Positions 56,984 to 62,163 of a stretch of DNA of 64,000 nt are shown here, piece after piece (the first letter of the stretch is position 1; each line of letters begins with the position of its first letter). The stretch comes from Actinomycetota bacterium (lineage in GTDB: Bacteria > Actinomycetota > CADDZG01 > WHSQ01). The notes beneath the pieces were generated by a model, which saw only the letters and a list, made by a program, of their open reading frames with translations, did no database searches and had not been told where the DNA came from. The stretch is taken from contig JAUJNI010000002.1 in assembly GCA_030446465.1 (NCBI GenBank), positions 444,963-508,962 of the forward strand, given 5' to 3'. The translations under genes and the position numbers were made by a program.

Positions 56984-57005
56984 TGCACATGCTAATGTAT
57001 GTGCA
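56984..57005. promoter_or_regulatory. Operator-like inverted repeat at the vapB start
   Basis: TGCACAT, eight bases, ATGTGCA. Inside it lies a -10 box TAATGT (56993-56998), six bases before ATG 57005. A repressor bound here would block the promoter and the start codon; antitoxins of this type usually repress their own operon, so this is a likely VapB site. Confidence 0.6.
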
Positions 57006-57250
57006 TGCTCTCCAGGCGTTTGCAGATCCTGATCGACGAAGCGCGCTACGAACGACTGGCGAAAACGGCGCAGGATCGCGGGGTCAGTGTTGCGCTCGTC
57101 ATAAGAGAAGCGATCGACCGCTCATTCCCACCACACGAAGAACGGCGAGCTCGGGCTGCCGCAGAGGTCCTCTCGGCTAAGCCCATGATGGCGCCTGAAC
57201 CAGAGGAGCTCCTGAAGGAGCTAGATCAGCTTCGGACTCATCGTCGTTGA
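57005..57250 (+). CDS. vapB: VapB-like antitoxin (ribbon-helix-helix)
   Basis: An 81-residue small basic protein MLSRRLQILIDEARYERLAK with VALVIREAIDRSF, the pattern of a ribbon-helix-helix DNA-binding N-terminus, and a tail rich in Glu and Leu that would wrap the toxin. ATG 57005 is preferred over ATG 56999 since it sits 6 bases after the -10 box. The last bases overlap the toxin start (57247). Together they form a type II toxin-antitoxin operon. Confidence 0.8.
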   Translation: MLSRRLQILIDEARYERLAKTAQDRGVSVALVIREAIDRSFPPHEERRARAAAEVLSAKPMMAPEPEELLKELDQLRTHRR

Positions 57251-57672
57251 TCGTCCTGGACACGACGGTTCTGGTCTACAGCGTGGGCAGCGACCACCCT
57301 CTGCGTGAGCCATGCCGGAGGATCGTTGAGTCAGTGGGCCACGGAGAGCTGACCGCCACTACATCGGCAGAAGTAATCCAAGAATTCGTTCACGTCCGCG
57401 CCAAGAGGCGACCCCGCCGGGATGCGGTGCAGCTCGGCGAAGCATTTGTGGACCTCCTGTCTCCTCTGTTGGAACTGAACGCCGCAGACTTGAGGAGCGG
57501 TCTCAGGCTCTTCCAAGCAAACCGAGGGCTGGGGGCTTTCGATGCCGTGCTTGCGGCGTCGGCCGTCGCACGGAATGCAGACGGCCTCGTTTCCGCCGAT
57601 GCGGCCTTCGGCATGGTTCGTGAACTGCGCCACATCGATCCGGCAAGTAAAGACCTCGACCAATTGCTATAG
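57247..57672 (+). CDS. vapC: PIN-domain ribonuclease toxin VapC
   Basis: A 141-residue PIN domain. Acidic metal ligands are seen at VLDTTVLVY (first Asp), TSAEVIQEFVHV (Glu), LGAFDAVLAASA (Asp) and LVSADAAFG (Asp). The protein should cut a specific RNA, often an initiator or other tRNA, when the antitoxin is lost. The TTG start overlaps the antitoxin stop (TTGA). Confidence 0.85.
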   Translation: MIVLDTTVLVYSVGSDHPLREPCRRIVESVGHGELTATTSAEVIQEFVHVRAKRRPRRDAVQLGEAFVDLLSPLLELNAADLRSGLRLFQANRGLGAFDAVLAASAVARNADGLVSADAAFGMVRELRHIDPASKDLDQLL

Positions 57673-59530: not shown

Positions 59531-59878
59531 GTGAACCCGACCGACCTCGTAGAGCGCCCCTATCTGAGAGACGACTTGCCCGACTTTCGCGCCGGTGACA
59601 CCGTCCGCGTTCACGTGCGCGTGGTAGAGGGTGAGCGCGAGCGCGTCCAGGTCTTCCAGGGGATCGTCATACGCAGGCGAGGAAGCCAGCTGTCGGAGAC
59701 CTTCACGGTACGAAAGCTCTCCTTCGGCGTGGGGGTGGAACGAACCTTTCCCATCCACTCTCCGATGATTGCCAAGGTCGAGGTCGCCACACTGGGAGAC
59801 GTCCGCCGCGCCAAGCTCTACTACCTTCGCTCGAGGGTCGGCAAGAAGGCCAAAGTCAAAGAGAAACGACTGTCGTAG
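59531..59878 (+). CDS. rplS: 50S ribosomal protein L19
   Basis: A 115-residue L19. [64 protein letters not shown] and [20 protein letters not shown] are the family sequence. L19 lies at the 30S-50S interface. GTG start with AAAGGAG six bases before. Its stop overlaps the next start (TAGTG). Confidence 0.97.
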
Positions 59879-60582
59879 TGGTGAAACGGGCCACCGCGGA
59901 ACCCTCCGGTTCCGGGCGTCGGCCGCTCCCTGACGGCGACGAGAAGCCCTCGACGGCGGAGCAACCGGCAAGAACCAAGCCCTCCGAGCGCAAGCCTTTC
60001 TGGCGAGAGCTTCCGGTGCTCATGGTCGCCGCCGTCGTCATTGCTCTGCTGATCAAGACCTTCCTGCTTCAGGCCTTCTACATCCCCTCGGAGTCGATGC
60101 TGCCGGCACTGAAGGTGGGAGATCGTGTCTTGGTCGAGAAGATCAGCTATCGCATTGGTGAGCCGCAAAGAGGCGACGTTGTCGTTTTCGAGAAGGACGT
60201 CGTGGTTCCAGGCCCCGATGACGATGCGGATGATTCGCTCTGGACCGACGTCGGCGATGCCTTCAGGGGTCTGTTCGGCTTTCCGACCGCAGGAGAGCAG
60301 GACTTCATCAAGCGGGTGATGGCCGTCGGGGGTGACACGATTCAGGGCAAGTCTGGCGCCGTCTTCGTCAACGGGCGGGAGGTGTCCGAGCCTTACCTCC
60401 CGGACGGCACCCAGACCCTGGACTTCGGGCCTGTCGAAGTGCCAGATGGCAAGATCTTCGTGATGGGGGACAACCGCGGGAACTCGGATGACTCACGACG
60501 CTTCGGCCCGGTTCCGGTCGACCGAGTGGTCGGGCACGCCTTCATCTTGATCTGGCCTCCTGCCGACTTCGGGACTCTCTAA
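59878..60582 (+). CDS. lepB: Signal peptidase I (first copy)
   Basis: A 234-residue type I signal peptidase. A polar N-terminus of about 40 residues, one membrane segment (LMVAAVVIALLIKTFLLQAF), then YIPSESMLPAL with the nucleophile Ser73, DRVLVEKISYRIGEPQRGDVV, the general base Lys145 in DFIKRVMAVGGD, and the box E MGDNRGNSDDSR. It cuts signal peptides at the outer face of the membrane. GTG 59878 or 59881 may be the start. A second, larger copy follows. Confidence 0.95.
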   Translation: MVKRATAEPSGSGRRPLPDGDEKPSTAEQPARTKPSERKPFWRELPVLMVAAVVIALLIKTFLLQAFYIPSESMLPALKVGDRVLVEKISYRIGEPQRGDVVVFEKDVVVPGPDDDADDSLWTDVGDAFRGLFGFPTAGEQDFIKRVMAVGGDTIQGKSGAVFVNGREVSEPYLPDGTQTLDFGPVEVPDGKIFVMGDNRGNSDDSRRFGPVPVDRVVGHAFILIWPPADFGTL

Positions 60583-60626: not shown

Positions 60627-60632
60627 TAATGT
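60627..60632 (+). promoter_or_regulatory. -10 box of the second signal peptidase gene, leaderless layout
   Basis: TAATGT, seven bases, then ATG 60640. Confidence 0.5.
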
Positions 60633-60639
60633 TCCATTC

Positions 60640-62163
60640 ATGCCAACCGTCCAACAGCTCGCCAGGGAACTCGGCCTCACCTCCCAGGAGGTGATGACTC
60701 GGCTGAAGGCGTTGGGCCGGCCCGCGGACGGACATCTTTCCCAAGTGGAGGATCAGGCTGCGGAGCGGCTTCGCCGAGAGAAGGCGACCTCGTCGCCCGT
60801 AGGTGATGCCACCTCAGAGACTGGTCGAGACGCCGCAGCCACTTCCGGGACCACGCCTGGGGGCTCGCCCCCGCCGACGGCAACTGCAGGCAGGACGGGG
60901 GCCAGAAAGACGACTGCGAGGAGCCCTTCCAAGAAGACCACTGCAAAAAAGACGACCACGCGCCCGGCCCCCGCCGCGTCCACCGGCGACCAGCAAGAGG
61001 CAGGGGCGGACGGCGCGGACGGCGGTGCTGCCGGCGCCGGTGCGCAGACCCCCTCGCAGGAGTCGACGGCAAAGAAGACGACGGCGAAGGCCACGGGGGC
61101 CAAGAAGACGACCGCCAAGAAGACCACCGCGGCCTCCCCCAAGAAGACAACGGCGAAGACGACGGCGGCCAAGAAGGCCACCGCGAAGAAGACCACTGCA
61201 AAAAAGACGACGGGCAAGAAGACCACCGCCAAGAAGACCACTGCAAAAAAGACGACTGCCCGCGGCGTCGCGCAGGACGGACCTGCCGACGCTCAGGCTC
61301 CGGTTGTGGAGGGCCAAGAGGACTCGGCCCAGGACGCGCAGGGGCCACAGGCACAGCCCGACGACGGCGCCCAAGCTGCCCCAGGAACCGAACCGGCCAA
61401 GCCCAAACGGCGATTCGGGATCTTTCCGCGCAGGCGCAAGGGGGCCGAGGGGGAGTCCAAGGAGCAACCCGCCAAGGCCAAGCCCAAGCCGGAGCCTCCC
61501 AAGCCAAAGGGTCAGGCCCGAAAGAAGTGGTTGAAGCGGCTGACGGAGCTGCCCGTTCTCGTCCTCATCGCCTTCCTCGTCGCGATCGTCATCAAGACCT
61601 TTCTCGTGCAGGCCTTTTTCATCCCCTCGGGTTCCATGCGACCGACGCTCGCCGGCGGCCAACGGGTGCTCGTCGAAAAGCTCAGCTACCTTTTCAGCAA
61701 CCCCGACCGCGGCGACGTGGTCGTGTTCGCGCGGTCCGATGCAGCCCAGAAGGTGAAGAAGCAAGCCTGGTACGACGACGCCCGTAACTTCATGAAGGAC
61801 CTCATCGGCCTCCCCACGCCCGGAACGACCGACTACATCAAACGGATCGCGGCAGTTGGGGGCGACACGCTTAGTTACGAGGGAAGTCCCAGAGTCCTGA
61901 CGGTCAATGGGAAGAGGATCAAGGAGCCTTACCTCACGCGGCCGGACACAACCAGCCCGGCGGTGACCGGCGACAGTTGCAGGAACATGCAGCTCGAACC
62001 GGTGAAAGGGGGCTGCCGTGTCCCGGCGGGGACCGTCTTCGTGCTGGGCGATAATCGGGACCAGTCCCAGGACTCCCGCTTCATCGGGCCGGTCAAAGAG
62101 GAAAAGATCATCGGCCGAGCCTTCGTGGTGATCTGGCCGGTGGAGGACCTGGCCGGCCTGTAA
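60640..62163 (+). CDS. lepB: Signal peptidase I with IF2_N-like domain and Lys/Thr repeat
   Basis: A 507-residue protein of unusual build. Residues 1-48 (MPTVQQLARELGLTSQEVMT, then LKALGRP..HLSQVEDQAA) look like the IF2_N domain of translation factor IF-2. Residues about 85-210 are low-complexity KKTTAKKTTAKK repeats, as in histone-H1-like tails, then an acidic and Pro/Lys linker. A membrane segment (about 302-325) and a full signal peptidase I follow: FIPSGSMRPTL with Ser332, KLSYLFSNPDRGDVVVF, DYIKRIAAVGGD with Lys401 and LGDNRDQSQDSRF. The catalytic half is complete, so cleavage is expected; the cytoplasmic tail probably binds nucleic acid or ribosomes. Confidence 0.88.
   Translation: MPTVQQLARELGLTSQEVMTRLKALGRPADGHLSQVEDQAAERLRREKATSSPVGDATSETGRDAAATSGTTPGGSPPPTATAGRTGARKTTARSPSKKTTAKKTTTRPAPAASTGDQQEAGADGADGGAAGAGAQTPSQESTAKKTTAKATGAKKTTAKKTTAASPKKTTAKTTAAKKATAKKTTAKKTTGKKTTAKKTTAKKTTARGVAQDGPADAQAPVVEGQEDSAQDAQGPQAQPDDGAQAAPGTEPAKPKRRFGIFPRRRKGAEGESKEQPAKAKPKPEPPKPKGQARKKWLKRLTELPVLVLIAFLVAIVIKTFLVQAFFIPSGSMRPTLAGGQRVLVEKLSYLFSNPDRGDVVVFARSDAAQKVKKQAWYDDARNFMKDLIGLPTPGTTDYIKRIAAVGGDTLSYEGSPRVLTVNGKRIKEPYLTRPDTTSPAVTGDSCRNMQLEPVKGGCRVPAGTVFVLGDNRDQSQDSRFIGPVKEEKIIGRAFVVIWPVEDLAGL

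Follow-up and report, generated by a model that had tools for sequence, protein, structure and literature searches.

A signal peptidase I gene in the window, which is the whole stretch of 64,000 nucleotides that was analysed, encodes a protein in which an IF2_N domain and a Lys/Thr-rich array stand in front of the membrane helix and the catalytic domain of the enzyme. This is a new domain architecture of a well-known enzyme, one that is rare and young and is conserved across two genera. The protein is read from a single open frame, from the ATG at 60640 to the stop at 62163, the coordinates being exact, and its parts are given in Table 1. No report joining IF2_N with a signal peptidase was found in the literature searched, and the titles and opening lines of abstracts on transertion together with signal peptidase held nothing relevant.

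Table 1 Features of the fusion gene and its immediate surroundings (positions are those of the window).
Feature	Position	Strand	Details
IF2_N–Lys/Thr array–signal peptidase I fusion (lepB2 type)	60640..62163	+	507 aa; G002 has an orthologue fused in the same way
IF2_N domain, residues 3-47	60646..60780	+	PF04760, AlphaFold2, Foldseek, identity with G002
Disordered linker (residues 51-140) that includes an initial small cluster of KTTAR/KKTTAKK	60790..61059	+	pLDDT mostly 39-49
Lys/Thr/Ala array, residues 142-207	61063..61260	+	Net charge about +22 including flanks
Acidic linker, residues 209-252	61264..61395	+	Net charge -9
Basic juxtamembrane stretch, residues 253-300	61396..61539	+	Predicted to face the cytosol; net charge +15
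Single transmembrane helix, residues about 301-327	61540..61620	+	Hydropathy peak and AlphaFold2 helix 293-326
Predicted extracytoplasmic catalytic domain of signal peptidase I	61621..62160	+	PF10502, TIGR02227, catalytic dyad
Nucleophile Ser332	61633-61635	+	
General base Lys401	61840-61842	+	
lepB1, tandem paralogue (plain signal peptidase I)	59878..60582	+	Directly upstream of the fusion gene
TAATGT, possible -10 element	60627..60632	+	7 nt before the ATG; weak

The original prediction described the N-terminus as IF2_N-like and proposed a domain search as the check, and that search bore the description out. When the whole protein was scanned, PF04760 (IF2_N) matched residues 3-47 (3.2e-6; 27.2 bits, above the cut-off of 25.3); residues 1-57 scanned alone gave 5.6e-8 and 32.9 bits. 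The copy in a second genome, G002, also passes the cut-off (25.7 bits). A genome-wide profile search of the window's own genome revealed IF2_N above the cut-off at three places only, namely the fusion (31.6 bits) and the two IF2_N copies within infB, the true infB being located some 25 kb downstream of the fusion gene. AlphaFold2, run on 22 aligned IF2_N domains, predicted a compact fold of three helices (pLDDT 82). In Foldseek the predicted residues 1-60 superposed on the N-domain of T. thermophilus IF2 with an rmsd of 0.9-1.0 Å (probability 1.00), the E-values, none of them below 0.001, being weak because the model is so short; a profile built from the 22-row alignment matched IF2 structures at 1e-11. 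The fusion thus shares with the N1/N2 domains of IF2 (PF04760) the sequence, the predicted fold and the flexible, often K/A/P/T-rich linker that follows. Unlike IF2, it has no C1/C2 domains, is joined to a membrane enzyme and carries Asp in place of the Lys of the KSH motif; the GTPase domain with its VMGHVDHGKT motif is absent from the 507 residues, so that the protein does not belong to IF2 itself.

The C-terminal part of the protein appears to be a functional type I signal peptidase, to judge from an intact catalytic domain and Ser-Lys dyad. PF10502 (Peptidase_S26) matched residues 303-499 (5.7e-47, 160.2 bits against a cut-off of 22.9) and the NCBIfam model for signal peptidase I, TIGR02227, gave 1.7e-43 and 148.3 bits (cut-off 47), in keeping with the prediction that the enzyme is fused, in one frame, behind IF2_N and the Lys/Thr repeats. 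The dyad, Ser332 in an xPSxSM motif and Lys401 in the box with KR, is invariant in 13 aligned homologues. Like other signal peptidases I (LepB; MEROPS S26), the protein has the common catalytic domain and dyad, the locus rplS-lepB-rnhB-DUF2469-yraN and a single N-terminal transmembrane helix of the Gram-positive type; unlike them, it has a 300-residue cytosolic extension with IF2_N and the array, the median N-terminal extension being about 25 residues in the 60 signal peptidases examined. The sole hydropathy peak lies at residues 304-326 and is preceded by a strongly basic stretch. Applied to this protein, the positive-inside rule predicts that residues 1-300 are cytosolic and that the catalytic domain lies outside. 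The full-length AlphaFold2 model (mean pLDDT 56) has a disordered linker and an enzyme core that is poor in large part, and this low pLDDT across linker and core makes it uninformative on docking between IF2_N and the enzyme. In another family of the class (f3; loci L034 and L032) two signal peptidases lie in tandem, one of which is extended on the cytosolic side by ~230 residues that lack IF2_N; long signal peptidase tails have therefore arisen more than once.

The same IF2_N domain is carried by lepB2 of G002, a genome from a sister genus in the family (public record WHSV01000053, Actinomycetota MAG Dino_bin16), in which lepB2 begins MSTVQQVARELGLTSQEVIARLKAMGQPADSHL. The order rplS-lepB1-lepB2-rnhB-DUF2469-yraN is common to both genomes. 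Between the two, the IF2_N domain (48 codons) is 71% identical with dN 0.21 and dS 1.54, giving a dN/dS of about 0.14, while the enzyme core is 55% identical with dN 0.35 and dS 1.37; these ratios are approximate because dS is near saturation, and the difference in identity has a Fisher p of 0.053. By this codon comparison, the IF2_N domain is under purifying selection between the two genera and is the slowest-changing part of the protein. The linker of residues 51-140, which is weakly charged, is not conserved in G002 and the array is missing there. The conserved addition is therefore IF2_N and not the tail.

The array was also part of the original prediction, where it was likened to histone tails. 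It is present here as described, about 66 residues with 22 Lys and 11 KK[TA]T[AG] units (TRF periods 15 and 45), with smaller KKTTA units near residues 90-107, but it is not conserved with the fusion. It is absent from the G002 protein, and tails of this kind are frequent on unrelated proteins in the family, so it was ruled out as the conserved functional core. Pairwise comparison of the units gave 140 codon differences, of which 120 are synonymous and 20 non-synonymous; because synonymous changes dominate, the amino-acid pattern seems to be kept beyond what the DNA repeat alone would give. HC2 (PF07382) matched over the array at 31.7 bits, which is below the cut-off of 40 and reflects composition only. 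The KKTTAKK composition is shared with histone-like tails of the HC2/HupB type and with the uL22 tails of the family, and the array differs from these tails in being internal, between a folded domain and the membrane helix.

KKTTAKK tails were seen in genomes of the family on uL22 (L146, L147, L152 and L155), a DksA-type zinc-finger protein (L149), EndoIII (L164) and histone-like proteins (L161 and L156). The IF2 of two genomes (G007 and G009) has IF2_N followed by KKTTAKK-like runs in the linker, the same order as in the fusion. That the Lys/Thr tails of the family accompany nucleic acid or ribosome proteins fits a polyanion-binding role, as far as composition can indicate one. The rplV gene of the window genome has an apparent frameshift before its KKTTAKK tail (about 1005-1605 of L214; near 195800 of G000:C4), probably a sequencing error since relatives have intact copies.

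Among all genomes and loci surveyed, IF2_N on a signal peptidase was found only in the window genome (G000) and in G002. No further fusion was found in 16 family genomes, nor in 24 genomes of the class, where every other IF2_N above the cut-off lies in an IF2-like or truncated frame and the two signal peptidases are thus the only exceptions. Neither was one found in the 80 best-matching named loci, picked by similarity to the lepB2 core from 84,980 species, nor across 396 Actinomycetota genomes, a phylum survey limited in sensitivity, with 148 of the 396 giving any match at E 0.001. The short-frame matches in the Actinomycetota were mostly at contig ends and no fetched stretch paired a signal peptidase motif with IF2_N. 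The survey of other actinobacteria that had been suggested for the same domain order therefore produced one further case, in G002, but none in the other genomes sampled.

The signal peptidase core tree recovered an old tandem duplication that gave rise to the lepB1 and lepB2 of the family (support for lepB2, 100/99), with both fusions in lepB2, where the placing of the two carriers was unsupported. Because their placement was unsettled in that tree, the IF2 tree of 13 genomes was used instead, and here G000 and G002 are sisters (support 97/98), which makes a single gain the simplest history. The nearest non-fusion relatives of the fusion domain are the N1 domains of the same family's IF2, with a G-x-P turn common to both. 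On the evidence of the IF2 tree and of this similarity, IF2_N was probably gained in the common ancestor of the two genera with N1 of the family IF2 as its source. In several genomes infB and lepB are no more than about 15-25 kb apart, which, together with the closeness of the domain to the family N1, suggests that a local copy from infB is likely.

A plain signal peptidase gene does lie directly upstream of the fusion gene, as had been noted, but the suggestion that its presence frees the fused copy for specialisation runs counter to the distribution of the two paralogues. The fused type, lepB2, is present in 15 of the 15 family genomes from which the locus was recovered (rplS-rnhB loci L062 and L064-L076), while lepB1 was not found at the locus in five genomes (G009, G010, G011, G012 and G015), one of which (G010) has a further signal peptidase elsewhere. 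With lepB2 kept wherever the locus was recovered, and lepB1 being the one lost, in several genera, the fused type is not a spare copy. The core of the window genome's lepB2 has the longest branch in its clade (0.68), indicating that it has changed faster than its orthologues.

Structural and single-molecule work shows that in IF2 sub-domain N2 binds helix h16 of the 16S rRNA (PMC9192638) and sub-domain N1 binds NusA, as shown in E. coli only, with neither contacting region conserved according to the authors (PMC12297416). Since IF2_N copies bind h16 or NusA, a link between export and translation or transcription is reasonable. We tentatively favour the reading that the cytosolic IF2_N docks the signal peptidase on a partner also used by IF2, ribosomes or NusA/RNA polymerase, or else on other assemblies containing nucleic acid. 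The domain would act as a docking module for the 30S subunit (through h16 of the 16S rRNA) or for NusA/RNA polymerase, and docking would keep the signal peptidase near ribosomes making exported proteins. In the window genome's lineage only, the Lys/Thr array would add a general affinity for polyanions (rRNA, mRNA or DNA), and a similar role is possible for the tails on uL22, the DksA-like protein and EndoIII of the family. More doubtful is the broader proposal that this IF2-derived tether localises signal-peptide cleavage at sites of co-translational or co-transcriptional export and so provides a natural membrane anchor for transertion.

The domain may instead have exchanged its partner, docking now on a component of the export machinery (SecA, SecY or the SRP receptor) or on DNA and not on ribosomes, which we consider unlikely. 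Where IF2 N1 usually has KSH, both fusions have Asp in place of the Lys (PADGH and PADSH), and the residues of Pseudomonas aeruginosa N2 that contact h16 (S277, V278 and K279) correspond, by profile offsets, to about G12, L13 and T14 in the fusion; with the contacting Lys lost and the KSH Lys changed to Asp, the binding partner may have changed. The small net charge of residues 1-50 (only about +1) points the same way. In Foldseek the IF2_N fold is also near winged-helix/MerR-like DNA-binding heads (pSK1 Par and RacA), which makes DNA an equally possible ligand. These features have to be set against the other core positions of IF2 N1, which are mostly kept in the fusions along with the G-x-P turn.

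It is likewise improbable that the long N-terminus serves simply as a disordered positive tail for topology or for binding acidic lipids, with IF2_N a passenger of little effect. Elsewhere in the family, lepB2 proteins carry unconserved, domain-free tails of about 30-90 residues rich in Pro, Glu and Lys, which such an account would explain, as it would the poor conservation of array and linker and the rise in charge to +15 by the membrane. It does not explain why, between the two genera, IF2_N changes more slowly than all the rest of the protein, with the dN/dS given above.

That translation begins at an internal start after the repeats, leaving the N-terminal part unmade, had been named in the original prediction as a reading that would count against it; we found no sign of this, judge it very improbable and reject it on the conservation of the N-terminus. 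The ATG at 60640 is not preceded by a Shine-Dalgarno sequence, which would favour such a start. However, the selective constraint extends over the first 48 codons, the translation start M-[PS]-T-V-Q-Q is at the same position in the window gene and in G002, and synonymous changes dominate within the array. Both starts are closely preceded by a possible -10 element (in G002, TACTCT, 9 nt before the ATG), which fits a leaderless transcript, the TAATGT candidate in the window being weak because a promoter scan upstream of the fusion gene found nothing. An error of metagenome assembly or binning has a negligible probability, for although G002 and possibly the window genome are metagenome assemblies, the latter with an apparent frameshift in its own rplV, the window sits on a 1.05-Mb contig, and the same joint in the same gene order in the independently assembled G002, of another genus, led us to reject this explanation.

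The natural transplant of IF2_N onto a membrane enzyme offers a clean test of what the domain binds, the role of N1 being known mainly in E. coli. If binding to ribosomes or to NusA–RNA polymerase is true, the fusion would be evolutionary evidence that a signal peptidase at the sites of protein synthesis is useful, and would speak to a long-standing issue, the closeness of the coupling between transcription, translation and export at the bacterial membrane.

Elsewhere in the window, positions 56999-57672 encode a VapBC-like toxin-antitoxin pair, named from the translations only, which consists of an 83-aa CopG-like and a 141-aa PIN-like protein and is flanked by genes for a PP2C-type phosphatase and a glutamyl-tRNA synthetase-like protein.
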